Assembly: GCA_001797365.1 (NCBI GenBank)
Contig: MGPH01000045.1
Span: 1 to 35,841, forward strand
Direction: 5' to 3'
Length of the DNA: 35,841 nucleotides
Origin: Deltaproteobacteria bacterium GWA2_45_12
GTDB taxonomy: Bacteria; UBA10199
Made by a program: the position numbers and the translations under genes. This document shows, piece by piece, positions 6,360-24,695 of the stretch (position 1 is its first letter; each line of letters starts with the position of its first letter). The notes below the pieces were generated by a model. It ran no database searches. It was given only the letters and a program-made list of their open reading frames with translations, and had not been told where the DNA came from.

Positions 6360-8465
6360 ATGTTTCAAAGTTTTCGTCCATTATCGGGAATAGGGCGTTA
6401 TCAGATGCCGCGGATGGCTACGCCTTTCTTAAGGCCAGTTCGTGCCCCGAGAGGGCTGCGGCCATTGCCTCCTTCTCCTTTGCCTTTGAGGATGGCAGCG
6501 CCTCAATCGGGGCGGAGCAGTTATTCTTCGGCTTTGCCCATTGGGACTAATTTAGAAAATGTAAGAGTGAAGCCGAATATTTTTGGAGCTGTACCCGAGT
6601 ATTTGTCGGCAATGATGGGACCTAAAAATGAAGATAAATTGAGACCTGTAACTGGATTTTCATTTGAGGAATGCTATGGCCGTCTGGCTAGAGGGCCCTA
6701 TGATGAAAATGACTTTGATATATATGACTTGCGTAAAAGATTGCTCGATGAAGTAAAGAGGACTCCCTTTCCCACCAAGGAGCAGAAACGCCAGCTTATA
6801 AAGTTATGCAAATTATTTTTTGATAAGGACGACAATTTTTTTCAGGCACGAAAAATTCTTGAACCCCTTCATGATTATTCCGGACTTCGTCGGCTTGTGG
6901 AGCTTTATATGCAGCGTTATCCGCTGAATCGTTATTCCTACGATGCCCCTGTTGTTCTTATGGCACTTGAAGAATATGAAAAAGTTTTGGCAGTTTATAA
7001 GAAAAGGGAGGATTTTGTTTTTGACTTGCTTGACTCTTCTGATGAATTGGTTGCTGCTTCTGACTGCGGTTTTGAGAGATATGTCGCCGGATATGGTGAC
7101 AAGACCCCACCGGCTCAAAGTTTGTGGGAAGCACCTCGTTTATTCGCGATTTCAAAAGAGTATGACATTTGCATCGCTATTGCCAAGGGAGGCCTGTACT
7201 CTGGTTTTATTGCTCAAACGCTTGGCATCCCCACTTTAATTGTCGAGATCCATGCTCATGGTCGGAGTAAGCCTGTGTCCCATTGGGTTACTCCTGTGGC
7301 TCTTGGAGATATTCAGGGGAAAAGAGTGTTGCTTCTTGATAAGGATGCGGTAACAGGCGCTAGCATCGCAGAAGCGGTAAGATTGTTGTTACCGTATAAT
7401 CCACAGCGCATTGGCGTTTATTTCAATCATTCTCCATGGCTCGACCCTGATATGGGTATTAGTATTTTACAGCCCGAGACTGTGGATCGAATCGAAGGTT
7501 TGGGGGTGAAGATTCATCATCCCCAAAATACACCTTCTCATATTCCCAATACTCTGTTCTTTGAACTCCATGAACGGTTTGGAACAAATTTGGGGCGCCT
7601 TTTAAAGGTGGATCGAAGATTTAAAGACATCCTGCCAGAAGCTCAGCGCAACTCTCCCGATCTTGCCTCTGTTTTGAAAAAAAAATGGGAAGCGCTCATC
7701 GAATTATGGAATTCATTTAATCCCCTTTTGCCCGGTGTGTTTGAATTGAGAGCCCGTCTTCTAACGCATTTGGAAGGAGTCTTGCGTTCCTTTCAAAGCG
7801 GACAAGAGATAGCAAGGCGGATGGGTGACCTATTGAAAGTGAATCCTTATGAAAGCTTGCTGAACTCTTTGTCATCCCCTTCCTCATTTTTAGTGTTGTA
7901 TGCGGAGGAATTGGCCGTGGGCCGCTATCGCGATAGAGGTTTGACCCTTGCTAAAAAAAGAGATGTGGAGAATACACGTCTTCCCCATTCCTATCTGGCT
8001 TCTTTTTGCGTAGCAGAGCGTGCGGTGCGTGAAGGCAATTATGATGTGGCCCTCATTGTTGGTCCGGAAGGATTTGCTTTTGAACCAATTTTTGAAGACC
8101 TTGGGCTGCCCACCGTTGCAGTCAATATTCCCGAGGATGATTATGGAGGGAAGCGATCCTTGCAAGCCTTCGATGATCTTTCTTCATTGAAAGGGAAAAG
8201 GGTGCTTGTCGTTGAAGATGATCTGCAATCCGGAGCCACTGTTGTTAAATTACTTGCGGCCCTCCCGAAGGAGGTGGCTGGTTTGGATCTTTATCTTGGC
8301 AATGGGAGTGGTTTCCAGCGGTTGGAAAATGTTCCTTCAGGGATTCAAAAGATATATGTTTCAAATGGAGCTACTCAACCGGAAGAGGATGGCGAAATTT
8401 TTCTACGGCATCTTGCTGAGCGAGAAATGATTTTTAAAGAGGAAAAACTTCCCGATTGGTTTTAA
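6360..8465 (+). CDS. Tandem phosphoribosyltransferase-like protein
   Basis: A 701-residue protein. Residues 1-60 are Arg/Pro-rich and probably disordered. Residues about 90-235 are mostly helical and unrecognised. A first PRTase-like domain spans about 255-400: a hydrophobic strand and AKGGLYSGFIAQTLGIP, then the PRPP-loop-like VLLLDKDAVTGAS (about 323-335). A second copy at about 525-690 repeats the pattern: GPEGFAFEPIFEDLGLP, then VLVVEDDLQSGAT (about 615-627). Both retain the acidic pair and the T/S-G-A/x turn of PRPP-binding loops. PRTases transfer a base or amine to PRPP, or serve as regulatory PRPP sensors; which applies here cannot be told. No Shine-Dalgarno precedes the ATG, and later ATGs at residues 16, 19 or 45 are possible starts. 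The stop overlaps that of coaX by 4 nt on the opposite strand. Confidence 0.75.
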   Translation: MFQSFRPLSGIGRYQMPRMATPFLRPVRAPRGLRPLPPSPLPLRMAAPQSGRSSYSSALPIGTNLENVRVKPNIFGAVPEYLSAMMGPKNEDKLRPVTGFSFEECYGRLARGPYDENDFDIYDLRKRLLDEVKRTPFPTKEQKRQLIKLCKLFFDKDDNFFQARKILEPLHDYSGLRRLVELYMQRYPLNRYSYDAPVVLMALEEYEKVLAVYKKREDFVFDLLDSSDELVAASDCGFERYVAGYGDKTPPAQSLWEAPRLFAISKEYDICIAIAKGGLYSGFIAQTLGIPTLIVEIHAHGRSKPVSHWVTPVALGDIQGKRVLLLDKDAVTGASIAEAVRLLLPYNPQRIGVYFNHSPWLDPDMGISILQPETVDRIEGLGVKIHHPQNTPSHIPNTLFFELHERFGTNLGRLLKVDRRFKDILPEAQRNSPDLASVLKKKWEALIELWNSFNPLLPGVFELRARLLTHLEGVLRSFQSGQEIARRMGDLLKVNPYESLLNSLSSPSSFLVLYAEELAVGRYRDRGLTLAKKRDVENTRLPHSYLASFCVAERAVREGNYDVALIVGPEGFAFEPIFEDLGLPTVAVNIPEDDYGGKRSLQAFDDLSSLKGKRVLVVEDDLQSGATVVKLLAALPKEVAGLDLYLGNGSGFQRLENVPSGIQKIYVSNGATQPEEDGEIFLRHLAEREMIFKEEKLPDWF

Positions 8466-10025: not shown

Positions 10026-10089
10026 GAAAGGAATTTGTAACTGAACTTGGTTTATTCTCAAAGCATAATTTGACAAGGCTTTGGGAGTA

Positions 10090-11121
10090 ATGAGAAAGTT
10101 AAAAAATATGATTGGCGAAATTATTAAACAGCTCAAAGAGGGGAAAAGTCTCAATCAAAAAGAGGCAGAAAATATTTTTTCATTGATGATTCATGGGAAA
10201 ATGCATCCGCAAGATGTTGAAGCGTTTTTATGCGCCTTGCGTGACAAGGGAGAGGTTTTAGATGAGGTTGTAGGGGCTGTACGTGTCCTCAAAGCCAAAG
10301 CCACTTCCATTCATTTAAGAAATCCTGACGCCATTGATGTTTGTGGCACGGGAGGGGATCAAAAAGGCACGTTTAATATTTCAAGTGCCGTGGCTTTTGT
10401 AGTGGCGGGGGCCGGTGTCTGTGTGGCCAAGCATGGAAACAGGGCGGTCAGCTCGCAATCCGGCAGTGCGGATATTCTGAAAGCATTGGGGGTGAAACTG
10501 GATCTTTCTTCGGATGCAGCCGCAAGATGTATTGATGAAGTGGGGATCGGTTTTTTGTTTGCGCCCCAATTCCATCCGGTTTTAAGAGAATTGGCGCCCA
10601 TTCGAAAAAAAATCGGGACCAAAACCATTTTTAATCTCTTGGGCCCCTTGCTCAACCCGGCCTCTGTTAAAAAACAGGTGGTGGGTGTTTATTCCAAAAA
10701 TCTGCTTCCACTGATGGTGAGTGTTTTGAAAAATCTGGGAAGCCAGTCCGTAGGTGCCGTTTGGGGGCACGATGGCCTTGATGAGCTTACTTTAACGGGG
10801 CCTTCCTCCCTCTGCTTCCTGCATAAGGGAAATATTTTTGAGGAAATTTTTGATCCAAAAACAGTCGGGTATTCTTATTGCAAGCTTTCAGATTTGGGGG
10901 GAGGCACCCCTGATGAAAATGCCAAACGTTTAAAACAGGTACTTAAAGGACATTCCATGCCGCTAGATCATTGTGTGCATTTGAATGCCGCCCTGGCGTT
11001 AAGAGTGGCGGGCAAGGCCAGTGATATGAAAGAAGGATTGCTTTTGGCTCAAGCATCTATTTCGTCAGGAAAGGCTTATCAGAAGCTGGAAGAGTTGGTG
11101 GAGTGGACGAATAAGCATTAA
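10090..11121 (+). CDS. trpD: Anthranilate phosphoribosyltransferase
   Basis: Joins anthranilate and PRPP to give phosphoribosyl-anthranilate in tryptophan synthesis. The frame opens at TTG 10081; I use ATG 10090, and ATG 10108 (MIGEIIKQLKEGKSL) is an equally good family-based start. None has a well-spaced Shine-Dalgarno. Motifs are CGTGGDQKGTFNISS (PRPP loop), KHGNRAVSSQSGSADILKALG (metal/anthranilate channel), and the KIGTKTIFNLLGPLLNP segment. Length is normal and there is no fused glutamine amidotransferase. It is the first gene of trpDCFBA here; trpE and trpG are absent from the window. It diverges from birA across about 65 nt that must hold both promoters; no trp leader peptide or attenuator is visible. 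Confidence 0.96.
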   Translation: MRKLKNMIGEIIKQLKEGKSLNQKEAENIFSLMIHGKMHPQDVEAFLCALRDKGEVLDEVVGAVRVLKAKATSIHLRNPDAIDVCGTGGDQKGTFNISSAVAFVVAGAGVCVAKHGNRAVSSQSGSADILKALGVKLDLSSDAAARCIDEVGIGFLFAPQFHPVLRELAPIRKKIGTKTIFNLLGPLLNPASVKKQVVGVYSKNLLPLMVSVLKNLGSQSVGAVWGHDGLDELTLTGPSSLCFLHKGNIFEEIFDPKTVGYSYCKLSDLGGGTPDENAKRLKQVLKGHSMPLDHCVHLNAALALRVAGKASDMKEGLLLAQASISSGKAYQKLEELVEWTNKH

Positions 11122-11137
11122 CTTTTTAGGAGATTGT

Positions 11138-11917
11138 TTGGTTACCCATCTCGACAAAATCATCGAATACAAAAAAGAAGAGTTGGCATTAAATAAACGC
11201 CAAATTTCTTTGGCTGATATCCAGAAACGGGCTGTGGATGCTGCGCCGGCACGCCCGTTTATGGGAACTTTTGCCAACTATGATGCCATCAACATCATTG
11301 CCGAAATCAAAAAAGCATCTCCGTCAGCGGGGATTATTTGTGCTGATTTCAAACCCGTGGATATAGCTCTTTCTTATGAAGAAGGCGGAGCGAAAGCCCT
11401 TTCAGTTTTAACCGATGAATTTTTTTTTCAGGGTTCCTTAAATTATTTGGGAGCCATCAAAAAACACGTCAAACTTCCCTGTTTGCGCAAGGATTTTACC
11501 ATTCATGAATACCATCTTTATCAGGCCCGCGCTTATGATGCGGACGCCGTGTTGCTGATTGCTGCTTGTTTGGATGACGCCCAGCTTAAGGATTATCAGG
11601 CCCTTGCTTTTGAACTGGGCATGGCCTGTTTAGTTGAAGTCCACGATGGCAAAGAATTGGAACGGGTTTTAAAAATAAAGCCGAAGATAGTTGGGGTGAA
11701 CAACCGGAATTTAAAAACTTTTGATGTATCTTTAAAAACTTCTCTCGATCTTATTCCGTCGATTCCAAAAGGGGTAGTGGCTATCAGTGAATCCGGGCTC
11801 AAAACGCGGGAAGATCTTGTCAAACTTAAGGAAGCGGGTTATGCCGGTTTTTTAATTGGGGAAATGTTGATGAGGGAAGGGAATGTGGTAAAGAAATTGA
11901 AGGAATTGATTCGGTAG
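11138..11917 (+). CDS. trpC: Indole-3-glycerol phosphate synthase
   Basis: A 259-residue TIM-barrel enzyme that closes the indole ring from CdRP, the fourth step of tryptophan synthesis. Signatures are IIAEIKKASPSAG (phosphate/catalytic Lys), SVLTDEFFFQGS, PCLRKDFTIHEYHLYQARAYDADAVL shortened here to its core PCLRKDF, VEVHDGKEL, GVNNRNLKTF and ISESGL. The start is TTG at 11138, with AGGAG 5 nt upstream; no in-frame ATG fits. It is separate from trpF, unlike the enterobacterial fusion. Its TAG stop lies inside the foot of a REP-like element: bases 11914-11917 read GTAG, and the element fills the space to trpF. Confidence 0.96.
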   Translation: MVTHLDKIIEYKKEELALNKRQISLADIQKRAVDAAPARPFMGTFANYDAINIIAEIKKASPSAGIICADFKPVDIALSYEEGGAKALSVLTDEFFFQGSLNYLGAIKKHVKLPCLRKDFTIHEYHLYQARAYDADAVLLIAACLDDAQLKDYQALAFELGMACLVEVHDGKELERVLKIKPKIVGVNNRNLKTFDVSLKTSLDLIPSIPKGVVAISESGLKTREDLVKLKEAGYAGFLIGEMLMREGNVVKKLKELIR

Positions 11918-11978
11918 GGGCGCCCCTTGGTGCGCCCCACACGCCGGCAGAGAAGGGCGCAGCAAGCGGCGCCCGTAC
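11914..11978. repeat. REP/BIME-like palindromic element A (trpC-trpF)
   Basis: It begins with GTAG, followed by hairpin GGGGCGC...GCGCCCC, a short linker, and a second hairpin GGGCGC...GCGCCC ending in GTAC. The TAG stop of trpC is part of the foot, and trpF starts 6 nt after the element. The two-hairpin form with opposed feet resembles a BIME. Confidence 0.8.
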
Positions 11979-11984
11979 AAACAT

Positions 11985-12626
11985 ATGTCAGTTCTTGTTA
12001 AAATCTGCGGTTTGACCAATTTAGACGATGCCATGGATGCCCTTGATTGCGGAGCTGATTTGTTGGGATTTAATTTTTATCCGGATTCACCGCGTTATAT
12101 CGACCCCGAACTTGCTTTTGATATTTTTGAGGAAATTCCGGGGAATGTGGAAAAGGTGGGTATTTTCGTTAATCGCGATCTTAAAGAAGTCTTGGATATT
12201 GCTGTTGAGTTCAATCTTGATTTCCTGCAATTTCACGGTGATGAAACGCCGGAATACTGCAATCAGGTGGGGCGTCCGTGGTTTAAGGCATTTAGATTGA
12301 AGGCGGAACAGGATTTGATTGAAATCCCCAAGTATGAAAGCCGGTGGCTTTTAGTGGATGCCCATGTTGAAAAAGCGTTTGGAGGAACCGGAGTTATTTC
12401 TGACTGGCATTTGGCGCGCGAGGCTAAAAAATTTGGTCAACTTTTTTTATCCGGTGGGTTAAAGCCTGATAATATTGAAATGGCCCTAGACGCTGTCAAA
12501 CCCTATGCTGTCGATGTAGCTAGTGGAGTGGAAGAATCTCCGGGGATCAAAGATAAACAGAAAATGGAAGAGTTTGTGGCCCGTGTAAGAGCGTGGTCGA
12601 CGAAGAATTGTAAGGGTAATCCGTAA
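11985..12626 (+). CDS. trpF: Phosphoribosylanthranilate isomerase
   Basis: A 213-residue TIM-barrel isomerase converting PRA to CdRP, the third step of tryptophan synthesis. Visible are VKICGLT (5-11, catalytic Cys8), LGFNFYPDSPRYI, GIFVN, LDFLQFHGDE, the catalytic-Asp strand LLVDAH, GGTG, and FLSGGLKPDN near the C-terminus. There is no Shine-Dalgarno: the ATG is 6 nt after a REP-like element. The TAA stop at 12624-12626 is part of the GTAAGGG foot of the next element, and the last residues (KNCKGNP) come from a region containing a second GTAAGGG at 12610, so the C-terminus appears to have been rewritten by repeat sequence. Confidence 0.95.
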   Translation: MSVLVKICGLTNLDDAMDALDCGADLLGFNFYPDSPRYIDPELAFDIFEEIPGNVEKVGIFVNRDLKEVLDIAVEFNLDFLQFHGDETPEYCNQVGRPWFKAFRLKAEQDLIEIPKYESRWLLVDAHVEKAFGGTGVISDWHLAREAKKFGQLFLSGGLKPDNIEMALDAVKPYAVDVASGVEESPGIKDKQKMEEFVARVRAWSTKNCKGNP

Positions 12627-12650
12627 GGGCAATTCATGAATTGCCCCTAC
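12623..12650. repeat. REP-like palindrome B (trpF-trpB)
   Basis: Foot GTAA, perfect 9-nt arms GGGCAATTC (12627-12635) and GAATTGCCC (12638-12646), then CCTAC. A single-hairpin member. It carries the trpF stop in its foot and lies 7 nt before the trpB ATG. Confidence 0.8.
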
Positions 12651-12657
12651 CTGTAAC

Positions 12658-13851
12658 ATGAAACACAATCCCGACAAATCAGGGCATTTTGGAATTTTTG
12701 GCGGAAAATACGTCTCTGAAACACTCATGCCCGCCCTCGATGAATTGGAAAAGGCCTACAAGCTTATTGCCAAGACGCCTGCCTTTAAAAAAGAGTTTGC
12801 AACTTATGCCAAGCATTACATTGGGCGTCCCACGCCTTTGTATTTTGCCCAAAAACTCACTGAAAAATTGGGTGGGGCCAAAATTTTCTTTAAACGTGAA
12901 GATCTGTGTCATACAGGCGCGCACAAGGTGAACAACACCTTGGGGCAGTGCTTATTGGCCAAAAAAATGGGCAAACCACGCGTGATTGCCGAAACAGGGG
13001 CCGGTCAACATGGGGTGGCAACCGCAACCATGTGTGCTCTTTTGGATCTTCAATGTGAAGTTTATATGGGTGAGGAAGATGTTCATCGCCAGTCGCTCAA
13101 TGTTTTTCGGATGAAGCTTTTAGGGGCCCAGGTTCATCCCGTGACTTCAGGAACTCAAACCTTAAAAGATGCCATGAACGAGGCCCTTCGTGACTGGGTA
13201 AGCCATGTAAGAAATACCTTCTATTGTATTGGCACTGTTGCAGGCCCGCATCCGTATCCAACAATTGTGCGCGATTTTCAGTCGATTATCGGACATGAAA
13301 CCAAAAAACAAATTAAAGAATATGGTTACGCAAAACCCGACTATGTGGTGGCCTGTATCGGGGGGGGCTCCAATGCGATGGGACTTTTTTATCCCTACTA
13401 TAAAGAGGCCTCTGTCAAAATGATCGGAGTGGAAGCCGCAGGTTCTGGAATCCGCAGTGGCAAGCATGCCGCTTCCATTTCAGCAGGCAGCGTGGGTGTT
13501 TTGCATGGGAATAAAACCTATTTGTTGCAAGATAAACAGGGACAGATTCTGCCCACTCATTCCATTTCAGCAGGGCTTGATTATCCGGGTGTTGGGCCAG
13601 AACACGCTTTTTTCCATGAGTCAGGTCGGTGCCGCTATGTTTCAGTGACTGATGACCAGGCCATGGAGGGATTTACCTTATTAAGCAGAACGGAAGGGAT
13701 TATTCCTGCTCTTGAATCGGCCCATGCTGTGGGATATTTGCCACAATTTATTCCCCAGACAAAAAAAGAAGAGATTGTGGTGGTGAATCTTTCAGGACGC
13801 GGCGATAAAGATATGGGGACTGTGGCCAAGGTGATGGGGGTGAAATTGTAG
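12658..13851 (+). CDS. trpB: Tryptophan synthase beta chain
   Basis: A 397-residue PLP enzyme, full length, that condenses indole and serine to tryptophan. The PLP lysine is Lys90 in [21 protein letters not shown] is the substrate loop with the catalytic Glu, GGGSNAMG (about 235-242) binds the PLP phosphate, and the C-terminus carries LSGRGDKDM. It is a typical TrpB1 that would form the alpha2beta2 complex with the neighbouring TrpA. The ATG follows a REP-like palindrome with no Shine-Dalgarno. The TAG stop lies within the foot (GTAGGGG) of the next element. Confidence 0.98.
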
Positions 13852-13902
13852 GGGCGGGTCTGTGGCCCGCCCAAAAAGGGCAGGTTACAAACCTGCCCGT
13901 AC
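13848..13902. repeat. REP/BIME-like element C (trpB-trpA)
   Basis: GTAG foot, then hairpin GGGCGGG (13852-13858)/CCCGCCC (13866-13872), then hairpin GGGCAGGTT (13878-13886)/AACCTGCCC (13890-13898), ending in GTAC. It contains the trpB stop and ends 9 nt before trpA. Confidence 0.82.
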
Positions 13903-13911
13903 CAATCCATT

Positions 13912-14706
13912 ATGTCTCGAATCTCAAAAACATTCCGCCAATTAAAAAAAGAAGGACGAAAAGCCCTGATACCTTTCATTACGGCGGGAGATCCTTCTTT
14001 AAAAGAAACGGAGAAACTCATCTTTACCCTTGAAAAAGCCGGCGTGGATATTATCGAGCTGGGAGTTCCATTTTCTGATCCCATGGCTGACGGGGCTGTC
14101 ATTCAGGCGGCTTCAGAGCGCGCCTTGAAAAAGAAAGTCACTTTATCCGATATTTTAAATTTGGTGGCCCGTGTTCGTAAAAAGACCCAGATTCCTATCT
14201 TGCTCATGGGTTACTACAATCCCATTTTTGTTATGGGGGAAGAGACATTTGCCCAAAAAGCGGCCCAATCGGGTGTGGATGCCCTTCTTATTGTGGATTG
14301 TCCCCCTGAAGAATCGCATAGCCTTCGAAAGGCTTTAAGAATTCATTCTATTGATTTGGTTTATTTGTTGGCTCCCACCTCGGATGAAAAACGTATCAAG
14401 CTCGCCACTCAAAATGCCTCCGGATTCATTTATTATGTTTCATTAACCGGAGTGACGGGGGCCAAACTTCAAGTTACCGATGAAATAAAAGCCCAGGTAG
14501 ACAAGATTCGGGCTGTGAAGAAAATTCCTGTGTGTGTAGGTTTTGGGATTTCAACTCCCAATCAGGCAGCTCAAATTGCCCCCTTAGCCGATGGTGTTGT
14601 GATAGGTTCCGTCTTGGTGAATCTTATTTTTCACAAGACTCATGGCTCTCAAACCAACCATACCAAGGTCCATCAGTTTATATCAAAGTTTAGACACTTA
14701 TTTTAA
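13912..14706 (+). CDS. trpA: Tryptophan synthase alpha chain
   Basis: A 264-residue TIM barrel that cleaves indole-3-glycerol phosphate and passes indole to TrpB. The N-terminal helix is followed by ALIPFITAGDPS. Catalytic Glu49 lies in IIELGVPFSDPMADG and Asp60 in the same motif. LLMGYYNPI, YVSLTGVTGA and VGFGIS are the conserved loops that bind the substrate phosphate. The last gene of the trp operon. Its start has no Shine-Dalgarno and follows the REP-like element C. The 180-nt gap downstream shows no clear terminator. Confidence 0.97.
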   Translation: MSRISKTFRQLKKEGRKALIPFITAGDPSLKETEKLIFTLEKAGVDIIELGVPFSDPMADGAVIQAASERALKKKVTLSDILNLVARVRKKTQIPILLMGYYNPIFVMGEETFAQKAAQSGVDALLIVDCPPEESHSLRKALRIHSIDLVYLLAPTSDEKRIKLATQNASGFIYYVSLTGVTGAKLQVTDEIKAQVDKIRAVKKIPVCVGFGISTPNQAAQIAPLADGVVIGSVLVNLIFHKTHGSQTNHTKVHQFISKFRHLF

Positions 14707-14886: not shown

Positions 14887-16242
14887 ATGCAAGAAAAAGA
14901 AGTCATTTTGCTGGTCGAGCCTAATCCTTTTGAGTCCCAACTCATTGTTGAGGTTCTTAAGAGGGAGGGCTTTGATTGTGTTGATTGGTATCCCAAATTT
15001 GAGGAAGTACCTAACCCAACAGACTATTCCGTTGTTCTTATGGGGTTCCATGCGGCCAATATCAATGGTCGTGACATGCTTTCCGAACTTTTGATTCAAA
15101 AGCCTGAAATGCCCGTCATCGTTCTTATTGACACCCACGTGGTGGATCAAGCTCTTTGGGCCATGAAATGTGGTGCTTTTGATGTTTTAGAAAAACCCAT
15201 CCATCCTGAACGTCTTTTATTGTTGGTCCATAAAAGTATGGAATTTGGATTTGTACGTACAGAAATTGTCAGGCTTCATCAACAGGCGCCTCAAGGAGAT
15301 ATTTATTATGGCATGGTGGGGCGGTCGATGGACATGAAGCGTATTTTTGATCTGATTGAACGTATCAAGGATAGTTCGGTCAATGTTCTCATTACCGGTC
15401 CTAGTGGGTCGGGAAAGGAAATGGTGGCTCGTGCGTTACATGCCACTTCCAGCCGTGCCAATAAAAAATTTGTCGCCATTAATTGTTCAGCGATTCCGGA
15501 TGCCCTTTTGGAAGGGGAATTGTTTGGTTATAAAAAAGGGGCTTTCACCGATGCTCGCACCGATAAAATCGGGCTTTTCCAGGAAGCTGACAATGGAACT
15601 ATTTTCTTAGATGAAATTGGGGATATGCCCATTAATGTTCAGCCAAAAATTTTGAGAGCCTTGCAGGAAAAGGAAATAAGACCCTTGGGCTCCTTAAATA
15701 GCGTCAAAGTCAATGTTCGTATTATTGCTGCCACAAATCAGAACCTGGAAGAAAAAATACAGCAGAAGCAGTTTCGAGAGGATCTTTATTATCGCCTGAA
15801 TGCCATGCAGTTTGAAATTGCTCCATTAAAAAACAGGGAGGAAGATATTCCCCTGCTTATCGATCATTTTTTGGCAAGAATGAAAAAAACACACGCTCAT
15901 GCAATCAAGGGAGTTTCCCAAAAAGCCATGAAAATACTCATCGATTATTCATGGCCGGGCAATGTGCGTGAATTGGAAAATGTGATTGAACGTGCCACCC
16001 TGTTTTCAAAAAATGAATGGATTCTTCCCGAAGATCTTCTTTTCTCCAAGGAAGAGGATGATGTGCTCCCCATGTCTGAGTGGGCTCGTCGTAAAAAGCC
16101 TTTGGCCGATATTGAAAAAGAATACATTCTTGAAGTCCTGCAGCACGTTTCCGGAAACCGCTCAGAAACGGCCAATATTTTGGGGATAGGGCGGAAGACC
16201 TTGTACAATAAACTGGCTAAATATGGCGTTGGGAATTCCTGA
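14887..16242 (+). CDS. NtrC-family sigma-54 activator with degenerate receiver
   Basis: A 451-residue protein in the order receiver (1-120), AAA+ (about 141-375), Fis-type HTH (about 412-448). The AAA+ domain has Walker A GPSGSGKE (171-178), Walker B GTIFLDEIGD (237-246), the sigma-54 contact loop as GAFTDA (218-223, consensus GAFTGA), and the arginine-finger region REDLYYRLN. The HTH reads NRSETANILGIGRKTLYNKL. The receiver keeps Lys103 but has Glu-Pro at 11-12 in place of the acidic pair, Gly53 at the phosphoacceptor Asp position and Ile where Thr/Ser is usual, so it should not be phosphorylated in the normal way. It is the first gene of an operon with a receiver/Hpt-like protein (9-nt gap) and PtsP. 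Signal input is therefore unclear. Confidence 0.9.
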   Translation: MQEKEVILLVEPNPFESQLIVEVLKREGFDCVDWYPKFEEVPNPTDYSVVLMGFHAANINGRDMLSELLIQKPEMPVIVLIDTHVVDQALWAMKCGAFDVLEKPIHPERLLLLVHKSMEFGFVRTEIVRLHQQAPQGDIYYGMVGRSMDMKRIFDLIERIKDSSVNVLITGPSGSGKEMVARALHATSSRANKKFVAINCSAIPDALLEGELFGYKKGAFTDARTDKIGLFQEADNGTIFLDEIGDMPINVQPKILRALQEKEIRPLGSLNSVKVNVRIIAATNQNLEEKIQQKQFREDLYYRLNAMQFEIAPLKNREEDIPLLIDHFLARMKKTHAHAIKGVSQKAMKILIDYSWPGNVRELENVIERATLFSKNEWILPEDLLFSKEEDDVLPMSEWARRKKPLADIEKEYILEVLQHVSGNRSETANILGIGRKTLYNKLAKYGVGNS

Positions 16243-16251
16243 AAAAATTCT

Positions 16252-16956
16252 ATGCAAGTCTGGATTGTTGATGATGATGCAGGTTTTGCCTACCAACTAA
16301 AGCATGCGATAGGGGCCCATACACTTTTTCAGAAAAAAGACTCTTCTTCAAAAATATCTGTTTATCTTTCAGGTTCTGAATTTTTAGAAGCGCTTTCCAA
16401 GAAGGATGCCGGGCCCGATCTTGTTTTTTTGGATTGTTATCTGGGAAATGATTTTGGACCCGAAATTTATTTGTCTTTGGATGCCCCAACCCGGGAAAAA
16501 GTCTGTTTTTGTTCGTCGATGAGCTACGGTTTGTTCCAGGAATTTTTCACTTCACAAAATGAGGCTGTTCCGCCCTTTGTCCCCAAACGTTTTGCGGAGC
16601 AAAAGTGGAAAGAAATTGTGGAGGCTGCTTCTAACAAGGGGAAGGCCGTTCCCCAAAAAAACGGACCCAGTCCAAAAAGCCCCTTTTATTTGAAAACGGT
16701 TGCCGATATTGGTCGTTTAGTGGAGGGGATTGAAAAAACTTATTATGGTGAAAATAAAAATGAAAATTCTCCCGATATTCTTTCCCAGGTACAAAGTATT
16801 CGTCTGAAAGCATCCACTTTTGGGGTGGACGTGGTGTTGCCTGCGTGTGATCGCCTGCTTGCTTATCTTGACCCGGCAAAGAAAACGGGGGCCATGAGGC
16901 TTAAAAAAGAGATCCGCGACTTTATTTCAAGTATAAAAAAAGCAGTCGAATCATGA
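16252..16956 (+). CDS. Response-regulator receiver with C-terminal Hpt-like domain
   Basis: A 234-residue protein. Residues 1-120 form a receiver: WIVDDD with the acidic pair (Asp7, Asp8), phosphoacceptor Asp61 in LVFLDCYLG, and Lys112 in FVPKRF. After a Lys/Pro-rich linker, residues about 175-232 are helical and read like an Hpt domain (SIRLKASTFG, then LPACDRLLAYL), but the phosphorylatable His and the following Gly of HxxKG are replaced (Ile and Ala). It has no DNA-binding or enzymatic output domain. It may dock with other phosphotransfer proteins, perhaps its neighbours. The start ATG has no Shine-Dalgarno and lies 9 nt after the preceding stop. The Hpt assignment is tentative. Confidence 0.75.
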   Translation: MQVWIVDDDAGFAYQLKHAIGAHTLFQKKDSSSKISVYLSGSEFLEALSKKDAGPDLVFLDCYLGNDFGPEIYLSLDAPTREKVCFCSSMSYGLFQEFFTSQNEAVPPFVPKRFAEQKWKEIVEAASNKGKAVPQKNGPSPKSPFYLKTVADIGRLVEGIEKTYYGENKNENSPDILSQVQSIRLKASTFGVDVVLPACDRLLAYLDPAKKTGAMRLKKEIRDFISSIKKAVES

Positions 16957-16984
16957 ACCAATATAAGGTACATTCAATAAACCA

Positions 16985-19360
16985 ATGAAGATTCGGCCTG
17001 CTATTTATGATTTTACTTCCACCGATGTAATGACTGACATTCTTGAATTGGGGCATTTGTGCCATGGCAAAGAGGATGTCAAAAAAGTTCTGGATATGCT
17101 TGTTGAGAAAATTGCCCGTATCATGCAGGTGGATGTTTGCTCTCTTTATCTTTTAGACCCTCATAATAAAATTTTGGAATTAAAAGCGACGAAGGGGTTG
17201 AACCAATTAGCCATTGGTGTGGTTAAAATGAAGGTGGGTGAGGGCTTGGTGGGAAAAACTCTTGAATGGATGAAGCCCGTTTCCATGTCTACAGGCAAGC
17301 GCAGTAAGCAATTCAAATATTTCCCTGAAACAGGGGAAGAAAAGTTTTCATCCTTTTTGTCAGTGCCGCTTATTTATAATCGTCAACCCATTGGTGTCTT
17401 GGTGGTTCAAAATGAAAAGAAGGTCAAGTTTTCTTCCCAGGCCGCCCATCTATTGATGACGTTGGCCATTCCCGCTATCAGCGTTGTCGAAAAAGCAAAA
17501 CTTCTCGATTCTTTCGTGAAAATTTCCTCCCGATTGGATTTTCAAACACAAGGGAATGAAGAGCTGCAGCCCAAAAAGACCGAAGGCATGGTCCATGTGG
17601 GGATTGGTGCGGCTCCCGGCATTGCCATTGGCAAGATCAAGATTGTGGGGAATCACCACCAGGATTTAAAACCGATAACCAAGGAAGCTCCCATCCACAA
17701 GGATGTTGAAAAAATGCGTGTCTTGGAAGCTTTTCGTTGGGTCCAGGAAGAAATTTTGGATGTCCAAAAAAAGGCCGAGAAAAAATTCGGCATGGAAGAA
17801 CTTTCCATTTTTGATGCCTATAGCATGGTGCTCGAAAGCGAGCCTTTTAAGGAAGAAATCCTGACTGAAATTGACAAGGGGAAATCGGCCTTGATGGCTG
17901 TGGAAAATGTGGTTGGCCGTTATGCCGAAGAGCTTTCCCATGCGGATGACGAATATATTCGTGAACGTGTTTTTGATATTCATGATGTGGGAAGAAAAAT
18001 CATCGATCGCCTTCTTTATGGAAGTGAAGTGCCTCGCTCGGCTTTTCATCTTACCCAGGAGGCTATTTTGATTTCAGATTCATGGAGTGTCTCCGATTTT
18101 GTTGAGCTTGATCCTGAAAAAACAAAGGGCATTCTTTCTCCCGTGGGAGGGGCCTCTTCCCATATTGCCATTCTGGCTGAGTCCATGGGCATTCCCGCTG
18201 TTTTGGGGTTGTCTTCTTTTGCTGATTTTATTCATGAAGATGATGAAGTGGTTATGGATGGGACTTCAGGGGTTGTGGTGCTCAACCCCACCAATGAAGT
18301 GCGTGAGATGTATCGCAAAGAAAGCACCAAAGAAGCCCAGGCCCAGGAAATTTACAGCCAGTATGCCCACAAACAAGCTTCTCCACGCGGTGGGAAAAGA
18401 ATTTTTATTGGTGCCAACATGGGTATGGCGGCCAATATGGGGAATGCCCTTGAGCAAGGGGCCGAACATATTGGGCTTTATCGTACGGAGATGCCGTTTT
18501 TGATCCGGCGTAATTTGCCTACGGAGGAAGAGCAGTTTCTTTTGTATAGCAAAGTGCTTTCCACCATGGGGGGAAAACCGGTGACAATTCGTATTCTGGA
18601 TATTGGTGGTGATAAATATGTTCCGTATTTAAATCTTCCCAAAGAGACCAACCCTTTTTTGGGATGGCGTTCCATCCGTATTTTGCTTGAACGCGAAGAC
18701 CTGTTCCGTATTCAATTACGCGCTTTGCTTCGTGCTTCCGTTAAGGGGAAGCTGCGCCTGCTTTTCCCCATGGTGACTTCGATGGAAGAAATTCTTAAGG
18801 TCAAAGAGATACTTTCGAACATCAAAAAAGAGCTTAAATCAAAAAATATTGCTTATGCTCCCAATATTCCCCTGGGGATCATGATTGAAGTGCCTTCTGC
18901 TGTTGAAATAGCGGACCGTCTTATTCGTGAAGTGAACTTTTTTTCTATTGGGACCAATGATCTGGTTCAATACACGTTGGCTGTTGATCGCAACAATCCC
19001 AAGGTGGCCTTCTTGTACAGTTATCTTCATCCCGCTGTCTTAAGGATGATTTCAAGAACCATTCAGGTCGTGCATAAAGCCAAAAAATCAATCAGTGTGT
19101 GCGGTGAAATGGCGGGTCAGGCTGAAGGAGCGTTGCTCTTGGTGGGGATGGGTATCGATGAACTAAGCATGAGTACCCCCTTAATTCCCAAAATGAAGCA
19201 TCTGATCAATCAAGTGTCATTACCCAAGCTTAAAAAACTGGTACATCAGGTTTTCAAGGCAGATACCACAGCCCAAGTAGAACAAATCATGACCCAGTTT
19301 ATGGTGGAAGAAGGGTTAAACCAGTTTTTGACAACATGCAAAGTGGCAATGACCCCTTAA
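16985..19360 (+). CDS. ptsP: PtsP, GAF-domain phosphoenolpyruvate-protein phosphotransferase (enzyme I Ntr)
   Basis: A 791-residue protein in the PtsP order: GAF domain (about 17-170), swivelling and helical enzyme I N-terminal region (about 203-440), and PEP-binding TIM barrel (about 470-760). The phosphohistidine is His393 in GGASSHIAI. The barrel has LYRTEMPF (Arg500), RILDIGGDK, MIEVPSAV, FFSIGTNDLVQYTLAVDR and the catalytic Cys706 in VCGEMAG. PtsP autophosphorylates from PEP and passes phosphate to an NPr/HPr protein, a regulatory rather than sugar-transport pathway; no NPr or EIIA gene is in the window. It closes an operon with an NtrC-family activator and a receiver/Hpt-like protein, suggesting regulatory coupling. 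Identity is secure; the partners are inferred. Confidence 0.94.
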   Translation: MKIRPAIYDFTSTDVMTDILELGHLCHGKEDVKKVLDMLVEKIARIMQVDVCSLYLLDPHNKILELKATKGLNQLAIGVVKMKVGEGLVGKTLEWMKPVSMSTGKRSKQFKYFPETGEEKFSSFLSVPLIYNRQPIGVLVVQNEKKVKFSSQAAHLLMTLAIPAISVVEKAKLLDSFVKISSRLDFQTQGNEELQPKKTEGMVHVGIGAAPGIAIGKIKIVGNHHQDLKPITKEAPIHKDVEKMRVLEAFRWVQEEILDVQKKAEKKFGMEELSIFDAYSMVLESEPFKEEILTEIDKGKSALMAVENVVGRYAEELSHADDEYIRERVFDIHDVGRKIIDRLLYGSEVPRSAFHLTQEAILISDSWSVSDFVELDPEKTKGILSPVGGASSHIAILAESMGIPAVLGLSSFADFIHEDDEVVMDGTSGVVVLNPTNEVREMYRKESTKEAQAQEIYSQYAHKQASPRGGKRIFIGANMGMAANMGNALEQGAEHIGLYRTEMPFLIRRNLPTEEEQFLLYSKVLSTMGGKPVTIRILDIGGDKYVPYLNLPKETNPFLGWRSIRILLEREDLFRIQLRALLRASVKGKLRLLFPMVTSMEEILKVKEILSNIKKELKSKNIAYAPNIPLGIMIEVPSAVEIADRLIREVNFFSIGTNDLVQYTLAVDRNNPKVAFLYSYLHPAVLRMISRTIQVVHKAKKSISVCGEMAGQAEGALLLVGMGIDELSMSTPLIPKMKHLINQVSLPKLKKLVHQVFKADTTAQVEQIMTQFMVEEGLNQFLTTCKVAMTP

Positions 19361-19521: not shown

Positions 19522-20466
19522 GTGAGTTTTTATCTCAAAAAGTACATCTGGGTGGCCAGTTTGCTGGCTGTGGTTTTGTGCTCTTATTTTTTGGCCAAAA
19601 TGGTGGCCAATGGGCTTAGTTTTAAATTTGGTGCGTTTATTTCCGGCCCTTTAACGGTGGCTGAGAACCCGCCCATTGTGATCTCTGAAAAAAAGGAAGC
19701 AACGGCTGAAGAACTCAAGCCCATTTTGGATCGCAATATTTTTGATTCCAAAGACACCGGTGTGGACCAAGGTCCGGTTTCAACCGAAACAGTTGAAGAA
19801 GAGGTTGTTGATCTTACCGGGGAAGCGGTGCCCACAAGTTTGGGAATAAAACTTGTTTCCACTTTTTCGGTAGGCAATGGAGAAGATGGCCGGTCATCAT
19901 CTATTATTTCATCGGGCAAGGGTGCAGCCGATGTTTATACGGTGGGGGATGCCAAGAGTTTTGCCCCCGAAACAAAGATTGTGCGCATCCTGTTTAACCG
20001 TGTCGAGTTTAGCAACAAGGGGCGGCTTGAATATGTTGAGTTGGAAGATTTCGCCAAGGGAGTCAAGATGAATGTCCCTCCACCGAGAGACGAAGGTGAG
20101 CCTGAAGGGCCAAAAGAAGATAAGGAAGTCAAAATTGAAAAGAAGGGGGAAAGTAATTTTGTCATTGACCGCTCTGAAATTGAAGATGCCATTAACAACT
20201 TGGACAAGCTTTATACGCAGGTGCGCGCCGTTCCCAATTTCAAGGATGGCAAACCCAATGGCTTGAAACTTTTATCGGTCAGGGCGGGAAGTATTTTTAG
20301 TAAACTTGGCTTGCAACGAGGAGATATCCTGAAAAGTATTAACGGGATGGAAATGGATATAAAAAGAGGTTTGGATATTTTTAACAAGCTAAAAAGTGAA
20401 AATCATATTACAATCGATCTCGAAAGAAGAGATGCGACACAAACTTTTGAATACGAAATCAGGTAA
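19522..20466 (+). CDS. gspC: T2SS protein GspC with PDZ domain
   Basis: A 314-residue inner-membrane T2SS component linking the inner-membrane platform to the secretin. It starts at GTG 19522; an in-frame TGA 9 nt upstream rules out longer versions. A single membrane helix is at about 9-28. The periplasmic homology region begins with LKPILDRNIFDS (about 66-77), the typical GspC motif that contacts GspD. A Lys/Glu-rich linker leads to a PDZ domain (about 240-314) with AGSIFSKLGLQRGDILKSING. It is the first gene of the gsp cluster and ends 4 nt before the chosen gspD start. Confidence 0.92.
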   Translation: MSFYLKKYIWVASLLAVVLCSYFLAKMVANGLSFKFGAFISGPLTVAENPPIVISEKKEATAEELKPILDRNIFDSKDTGVDQGPVSTETVEEEVVDLTGEAVPTSLGIKLVSTFSVGNGEDGRSSSIISSGKGAADVYTVGDAKSFAPETKIVRILFNRVEFSNKGRLEYVELEDFAKGVKMNVPPPRDEGEPEGPKEDKEVKIEKKGESNFVIDRSEIEDAINNLDKLYTQVRAVPNFKDGKPNGLKLLSVRAGSIFSKLGLQRGDILKSINGMEMDIKRGLDIFNKLKSENHITIDLERRDATQTFEYEIR

Positions 20467-22985: not shown

Positions 22986-24695
22986 ATGGATGATCGCAGT
23001 CTTGGTCAAATTCTATTAGAAAATACTCCCCTTACTCCTGAACAGCTTAATGAAGCTCTTATAGTGCACCGTGAAAAGGGGCTTAAAATGGGAGAGGCCC
23101 TTTTACAGCTTCGATTTTTAAGGCCCGAGGATGTTTTAAAAGCCCTTTCATTGCAGGTAGGCATTCCTTTTGTAACCGATATTGTCGCCGAAGATATTCC
23201 TGTTGAACTTGTCAATAAAGTGCCCATTAATTTTGCCAAACGTAATGAGCTCATTCCCCTAAAACGTGAGGAAGGCAGTATTGTTGTGGCCCTGGCAGAC
23301 CCGGTCAATCATGCCGCCCTGGATGATCTGTCCCTTATTTTTGACCAACCCATCAAGCCTGTGATTGCTTCTTCCCAAAAAATCATGGATGCCATCAATG
23401 CCTGTTATAACCGGCAAGTGGGGTCTGATCAGACCGTGATGAGCGACTTGGATGAAGAAAACCTCGATCAGGTGGCGCAAGAACTTGAGGAAGTGCAGGA
23501 CCTTCTTGATGCCGCCGATGAAGCCCCCATTATTCGTTTGGTCAATCAACTTTTATTTCGTTCCGTAAAGCAAAATGCTTCCGATATTCATCTTGAGCCT
23601 TTTGAAAAGGAATTAGTCGTTCGTTTTAGAATCGATGGTGTTTTGTATGATGTGATGCATCCGCCCAAAAAAGCCCAAAACAGTATTTTGTCGCGCATTA
23701 AAATCATGGCCAATCTGAATATTGCCGAAAAAAGACTTCCTCAAGATGGGCGTATTCGTATCAAACTGGCAGGAAAAGACATTGATATCCGCGTTTCAAC
23801 CTTACCCACTTCCTTTGGAGAAAGTGTGGTCATGCGTTTACTTGACAGAAGCAAAGTGCTCTTAAATCTTGATTCCATTGGAATGAAGGGAGGAAATTTA
23901 AAAACCATTCGTGATCTCATTCATAAAAGTCACGGGATCATCCTGGTGACAGGGCCCACGGGTTCCGGTAAAACAACAACCCTTTATGCGGCCCTTACCG
24001 AAATCAATTCTTCCGATGTAAAAATTATTACGGTGGAAGACCCCGTGGAATATCAGATTCCAGGGATCAACCAGACGCAGGTCAATCCAAAAATAAATCT
24101 TACCTTTGCCGCCGGCTTGCGGGCCATTTTGCGCCAGGACCCCGACATTGTGATGATCGGTGAAATTCGTGACAAAGAGACGGCGGAAATCGCCATCCAG
24201 GCTTCCTTGACCGGCCATTTGGTTCTTTCAACCTTGCACACAAATGATTCCGCTTCTGCGGCCACTCGTCTTATCGACATGGGTGTCGAGCCTTTCCTGG
24301 TGGCCAGTTCCCTTGTGGGTGTGGTGGCCCAAAGATTGGTGCGTACCTTGTGTAAAACATGTGCCGAAATTTATGAACCGACGGAAGCTGAATTGGAGCA
24401 GTTGGGGCTTTCACATCAGGTGTTGCAAGGGCATGTTATTTATAAACCCGTGGGTTGTCCGCAATGTTTAAATACGGGCTACAGCGGCCGTACGGCCATT
24501 CATGAAATTTTATTGATCGATGATGAGGTGCGTTCTTCCATCATCAAGTCTGTTGATGCCATCACCATCAAAAAAGTGGCGATGCGAAAGGGGCTGCTTA
24601 CCTTAAGAGAAACAGCAATCAATCTCTTGGTGGAAGGGATGACAAGCATTCAAGAAGTTTTAGCCATTACACAGGAAGATACAGTAAGAGAGTAG
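22986..24695 (+). CDS. gspE: T2SS ATPase GspE
   Basis: The cytoplasmic hexameric ATPase that powers pseudopilus assembly, 569 residues. The N1E-type N-terminal domain (about 1-145) begins with LGQILLENTPLTPEQLNEAL. The N2E and ATPase domains follow, with Walker A GPTGSGKT (323-330), Asp box near IITVEDPVEY (347-356), Walker B RQDPDIVMIGEIRD (383-396) and His box LSTLHTNDS (414-422). A zinc-binding tetracysteine is at Cys456, 459, 491 and 494 (CKTC and CPQC). It contacts GspL and GspF. The ATG lacks a Shine-Dalgarno. The TAG stop is part of the foot of REP-like element D. Confidence 0.98.
   Translation: MDDRSLGQILLENTPLTPEQLNEALIVHREKGLKMGEALLQLRFLRPEDVLKALSLQVGIPFVTDIVAEDIPVELVNKVPINFAKRNELIPLKREEGSIVVALADPVNHAALDDLSLIFDQPIKPVIASSQKIMDAINACYNRQVGSDQTVMSDLDEENLDQVAQELEEVQDLLDAADEAPIIRLVNQLLFRSVKQNASDIHLEPFEKELVVRFRIDGVLYDVMHPPKKAQNSILSRIKIMANLNIAEKRLPQDGRIRIKLAGKDIDIRVSTLPTSFGESVVMRLLDRSKVLLNLDSIGMKGGNLKTIRDLIHKSHGIILVTGPTGSGKTTTLYAALTEINSSDVKIITVEDPVEYQIPGINQTQVNPKINLTFAAGLRAILRQDPDIVMIGEIRDKETAEIAIQASLTGHLVLSTLHTNDSASAATRLIDMGVEPFLVASSLVGVVAQRLVRTLCKTCAEIYEPTEAELEQLGLSHQVLQGHVIYKPVGCPQCLNTGYSGRTAIHEILLIDDEVRSSIIKSVDAITIKKVAMRKGLLTLRETAINLLVEGMTSIQEVLAITQEDTVRE

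Follow-up and report, generated by a model that had tools for sequence, protein, structure and literature searches.

Approximately 2.0% of the receiver domains of family PF00072 are without the Asp and approximately 0.9% of Hpt domains without the His, and how pseudo-receivers originate and are switched has been described as an open question (PMC12632262). In the ALR regulators RitR, ChxR, FrzS and FleQ the receiver fold is present without the phospho-Asp. The same applies to the NtrC-type activator described here, which also keeps an acidic first position and the Lys and has lost the second acidic position, the commonest pattern among ALRs (PMC4395418). Unlike these regulators, its ortholog group forms a ladder from intact over dead to absent receivers, and a new receiver/Hpt-like protein is encoded next to it. 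DctD of Vibrio vulnificus is likewise an NtrC-type activator and works unphosphorylated via a bound protein, IIA-Glc (PMC11077940). In DctD, however, the Asp is retained and phosphorylation is possible as well, and the partner is a PTS EIIA. The neighbouring protein of the present locus resembles receiver-Hpt and His-less Hpt proteins in that a receiver precedes an Hpt-like helical bundle, but this bundle escapes the Pfam Hpt profile and no member of the group carries the His. The third protein, PtsP, belongs to a PTS-Ntr of the common type, in which HPr and EIIA-Ntr are encoded apart from the GAF-EI protein in an rpoN cluster, as in other proteobacteria (PMC13104625); only the neighbourhood of PtsP is unusual here.

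Results

The window analysed is the complete 35,841 bp contig C45 (MGPH01000045.1) of Deltaproteobacteria bacterium GWA2_45_12 (genome G000, 2.46 Mb, 95% complete). It harbors a trp operon (10081-14706), followed by the activator, the receiver/Hpt-like protein, PtsP and a T2SS operon. The features of the three central genes are:

14887..16242, + strand: NtrC-type sigma-54 activator, 451 aa (receiver, sigma-54 AAA+ and Fis-type HTH by Pfam)
14887..15240, + strand: pseudo-receiver domain of the activator, aa 1-118 (E11/P12, G53, I81; K103 kept)
15538..15555, + strand: GAFTDA codons of the activator (sigma-54 contact loop), common to all full-length orthologs
16252..16956, + strand: receiver + Hpt-like protein, 234 aa (in five of eight genomes of the order, with an incomplete copy in a sixth)
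16252..16635, + strand: receiver domain of this protein, aa 1-128, pocket intact (D7/D8, D61, S88, K112)
16672..16953, + strand: its predicted Hpt-like four-helix domain without His (AlphaFold2, Foldseek)
16985..19360, + strand: PtsP (EI-Ntr: GAF + PEP-protein phosphotransferase), 791 aa, catalytic residues present

All three ORFs are complete, co-directional and spaced by 9 and 28 bp, so that the tight gene order described in an earlier note on this DNA is real, and the three genes may be transcribed together. The activator starts 180 bp behind trpA, and 161 bp separate PtsP from gspC (GspC_delta, 221 bits), with which the T2SS operon opens at 19522, directly behind the three genes as the same note had stated. 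No promoter or terminator signal around the three genes was above chance or clearly placed, the frequency of promoter-like sites did not exceed that in shuffled sequences, and an Rfam search gave no match at the gathering score. For sigma-54 promoters, 16 matches with at most two mismatches were obtained in the window versus 20 expected by chance; thus no target of the activator was identified, and naming the T2SS or the trp operon as targets amounts to guesses from position. The T2SS ATPase GspE of the window (22986-24695) contains an MshE-related c-di-GMP-binding domain (NF053729, 45.6 bits; cut-off 38), which suggests control of secretion by c-di-GMP. A 701-aa ORF at 6360-8465 had no NCBIfam match at E 1e-10.

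In Pfam analysis the activator was recognized by the profiles for the receiver (PF00072, 40 bits; cut-off 30.2), the AAA+ domain (PF00158, 233 bits) and the HTH (PF02954, 62 bits). In its receiver pocket E11/P12 stand at the acidic pair, Gly53 replaces the Asp and Ile81 the Thr/Ser, and Lys103 is retained, while most other proteins of a 75-protein NtrC-type alignment have D/E, D, D, T/S and K at these positions. A receiver profile above cut-off combined with a missing phospho-Asp makes this domain a pseudo-receiver (ALR), and the acidic pair, Asp, Thr/Ser and Lys that mark phosphorylated response regulators are not all present. The earlier note had listed the Asp, the acidic pair and the Thr/Ser as lost, which is correct for the Asp, the second acidic residue and the Thr/Ser but not for the first acidic position, which is still acidic. 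Since both Asp and Thr are missing, normal NtrC-style phospho-switching would be impossible and the activator is predicted to be phosphorylation-independent. In the AAA+ domain Walker A (GPSGSGKE, 171), Walker B (GTIFLDEIGD, 237), the sigma-54 loop (218) and a DLYYRL stretch are present, which together with the C-terminal Fis-type HTH assign the protein to the NtrC-type enhancer-binding proteins. The loop reads GAFTDA instead of GAFTGA. GAFTDA is among the variants expected to stay functional and is also present in Desulfovibrio DVU2106 (PMC4641369), which makes an active AAA+ ring probable.

A comparison with the other contigs of the same genome revealed only distant NtrC-type paralogs of the activator (33-45% identity). 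Contig C37 of this genome (L125, 4120-8411) encodes three NtrC-type regulators in a row, the last of which has a dead, Asp-less receiver; next come a STAS-like protein and a possible GHKL/HATPase protein. This pseudo-receiver regulator is also encoded in G012 (L080) and G032 (L112) and looks like a better conserved case than the activator of the window.

Comparison of the locus drew on eight genomes from the order, G000 among them, and on 46 from the class. Activator orthologs were obtained from G003 (61% identity), G006 (56%), G004 (49%, AAA+ and HTH only), G010 (46%) and G026 (46%), and form one clade in the tree (support 100/99). The Asp-to-Gly change, whose conservation in relatives the earlier note had proposed as a check, is not conserved: the pocket is intact, with the normal Asp that the note had listed as refuting, in G003, G006, G010 and G026, and in G004 the entire receiver is missing. 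Because four orthologs keep the Asp pocket and one has lost the whole domain, the change is, on this comparison, specific to the lineage of the window. A sequencing error behind Gly53 was rejected, as the ORF is uninterrupted, several pocket positions are changed and 46% identity to the G003 receiver is retained. Relaxed decay of the receiver was judged unlikely: window and G003 activators share 46% identity in the receiver and 70% in the AAA+ domain, and the G003 and G006 proteins, both with intact pockets, share 38% and 66%, respectively, which is normal divergence. By these values the pseudo-receiver is a kept domain from which the chemistry was removed, with a rate of change no higher than in the orthologs' intact receivers.

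Gene order around the activator is partly maintained. In G003 the order is trpA, activator, receiver/Hpt-like protein, short genes, RarA (opposite strand), PtsP and gspC, and in G004 trpA, activator, receiver/Hpt-like protein, SDR and RarA (both on the opposite strand), PtsP and gspC. Behind trpA and the activator, G006 has a receiver protein, a second NtrC-type regulator and a TonB receptor; its PtsP and receiver/Hpt-like protein are encoded on other contigs. The activator and the receiver/Hpt-like protein are thus adjacent in three families (G000, G003 and G004, in each case after trpA). In contrast, the adjacent trio with PtsP was found in none of the seven relatives within the order; PtsP is unlinked or separated in every relative examined, the second outcome that the earlier note had named as refuting, and the conserved three-gene cassette is not upheld. 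RarA, which lies between the receiver/Hpt-like protein and PtsP in G003 and G004, is encoded on another contig (C7) of G000, and in the simplest reading departure of the RarA block made PtsP adjacent.

PtsP itself corresponds to its earlier description as a PEP phosphotransferase with a GAF sensor. It contains GAF and a complete EI module (PF01590, PF05524, PF00391 and PF02896; that is, GAF with PEP-utiliser N, mobile and C domains and the active-site His, as in EI-Ntr), scores above cut-off with TIGR01417 (553 bits) and slightly under the cut-off of 583 with NF008283 (581.2), and looks catalytically intact, with the phospho-His motif GGASSH (H393) and C706 in VCGE. A search for NPr and EIIA-Ntr genes, as suggested in the earlier note, led to HPr and EIIA-Ntr in a rpoN-EIIA-HprK-EIIA(Man)-HPr-EI cluster of the usual arrangement on contig C18 of the same genome. 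PtsP is present in all eight genomes of the order, including G001 and G005, which have neither activator nor receiver/Hpt-like protein. In G001, G002, G005 and G006 PtsP has a different genomic location. RarA and further genes, partly in opposite orientation, split it from the pair in G003 and G004. Resolution of the PtsP tree was insufficient for an ordering of the families. From its distribution, PtsP is probably a chance neighbour of the regulatory pair.

For the receiver/Hpt-like protein, hereafter the partner, Pfam gave a weak receiver match alone (19 bits, under the Pfam cut-off) and no Hpt match. Since receiver matches dominated the fold search with the full-length protein, the C-terminal domain was folded separately. 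AlphaFold2 predicted four helices for these 94 residues (pLDDT 87), and Hpt/phosphotransfer proteins lead the Foldseek results (3myf and 8pbw, with CheA P1, 1tqg, close behind). Most of these Hpt matches have TM values of 0.67-0.78 at E 0.04-0.2, none is below 0.001, and the scores of designed four-helix bundles are similar. Beyond residue 23 the protein contains no His, none is conserved among relatives and an HxxKG phospho-His motif is absent. The earlier picture of an intact receiver joined to an Hpt domain without His agrees with these data, with the Hpt-like fold predicted below significance, and "Hpt-like, His-less" is a fair description of the modelled fold. With a sequence too divergent for the Pfam Hpt profile and no His in any member, the domain may be unrelated to Hpt by descent. 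The receiver of the partner varies among relatives: G004 and G002 have E instead of D at the phospho-site, and G003 lacks the acidic pair. Partner genes away from the activator occur in G002 and G007.

No histidine kinase is encoded in the neighbourhood, as claimed earlier, but the claim reaches no further than that. Genes for a dCache-HAMP histidine kinase, an ABC ATPase and a FetB-like (UPF0014) permease immediately precede the partner gene in G006 and G007. Operons of this kinase, ATPase and permease were located at:

L110, 60-3702
L089, 1269-4529
L124, 4317-7416

Among the eight genomes of the order, the kinase, FetB and the second NtrC-type regulator were found in exactly G003, G006 and G007. 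In G003 the kinase-ABC-FetB genes lie near a TonB receptor and the second NtrC-type regulator, and in G006 the latter two lie near the activator. In G007 the activator is gone and a receiver-HisKA-HATPase hybrid occupies the slot after trpA (L144, 3693-4916; contig C57); the corresponding slot of G006 holds just a 187 aa receiver protein, possibly a truncated copy of the G007-type hybrid. In G026 a HisKA protein is encoded immediately upstream of the activator. From these associations kinase, ABC/FetB, second NtrC-type regulator, TonB receptor and activator/partner look like one system, which, given the FetB and TonB families, perhaps serves metal uptake or export. In the order (n = 4 genomes), the activator receiver is intact where the kinase/ABC/FetB operon is present (G003 and G006) and dead (window) or missing (G004) where it is not. 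Absence of the kinase could be an artefact of incomplete assemblies.

Discussion

We give an even chance to the reading that the activator was orphaned from its kinase, is now phosphorylation-independent and is probably controlled by the neighbouring receiver/Hpt-like protein. The ancestral activator would have been a conventional NtrC-type response regulator, as suggested by the orthologs with intact pockets and by the kinase gene upstream of it in G026. In the order it would then have become linked to the new receiver/Hpt-like protein, apparently within the wider Cache-kinase/ABC-FetB/second-regulator/TonB system. In the lineage of the window, in which neither the kinase/transporter operon nor the second regulator was found, the activator's receiver has lost the chemistry and kept the fold. 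The AAA+ ring would most likely be gated by protein contact, with the adjacent receiver/Hpt-like protein as likeliest partner, whose intact receiver could carry a phospho-signal in trans. By gene order, PtsP was presumably brought beside the pair when the RarA-containing block left the locus. By analogy with described activators, docking between activator and partner is a reasonable assumption; their adjacency may also reflect co-expression alone.

It is somewhat unlikely, in our estimate, that the pseudo-receiver activator is constitutive or set by its expression level alone, with the partner gene as an unrelated co-transcribed neighbour. G004 has lost the receiver outright while AAA+ and HTH persist, in G002 and G007 the partner gene stands at another locus unaccompanied by the activator, and constitutive roles have been proposed for Asp-less receivers in the ALR survey (PMC4395418); however, the normal divergence of the window receiver, with no decay, and the side-by-side position of the two genes in three families speak against it. 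A stricter form of partner control, in which the phospho-input moved to the neighbour and the receiver/Hpt-like protein docks on the dead receiver and switches the activator in trans, seems distinctly unlikely. The activator is dead and the partner intact in the window, the activator intact and the partner without its acidic pair in G003, and the receiver gone and the partner Asp replaced by Glu in G004; with the same Glu in G002, an in-trans phospho-signal is not a general rule.

We consider it very unlikely that PtsP, reporting PEP/nitrogen state and a GAF signal, docks to control the activator directly or via HPr/EIIA as part of a three-protein cassette. The tight co-directional spacing in this genome, the active-site residues of PtsP, the encoded HPr/EIIA-Ntr and the activation of Vibrio vulnificus DctD by bound dephospho-IIA-Glc (PMC11077940) fit such a cassette, but in every relative examined PtsP is unlinked or behind opposite-strand genes, G001 and G005 have PtsP without activator or partner, and orthologs with an intact receiver do without PtsP as neighbour. 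Of the control model put forward in the earlier note, two elements are retained: on account of the dead pocket the activator is no normal phospho-switch, and protein docking is reasonable for the activator and its receiver/Hpt-like neighbour. The PEP/nitrogen input is without comparative support. Least probable of all appears binding of a small molecule or second messenger by the activator, in the manner of FleQ, whose AAA+ domain binds c-di-GMP. FleQ is among its closest solved relatives and the adjoining T2SS ATPase has the MshE-type c-di-GMP domain, yet LFRSLVG of FleQ aligns with IYYGMVG in the activator and the Arg of the motif, which we take to be the c-di-GMP contact, is missing.

A PEP/nitrogen cassette would matter more, but the comparison gives it no support. 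Within one ortholog group, the activator family shows intact, dead-but-folded and lost receivers, and within the order the last two occur only where the candidate kinase operon is missing. The new, order-specific receiver/Hpt-like protein is a natural candidate partner for a pseudo-receiver activator, and both proteins of the pair are small and easily expressed. If the in-trans switch were true, it would represent a new route from response regulator to pseudo-receiver.
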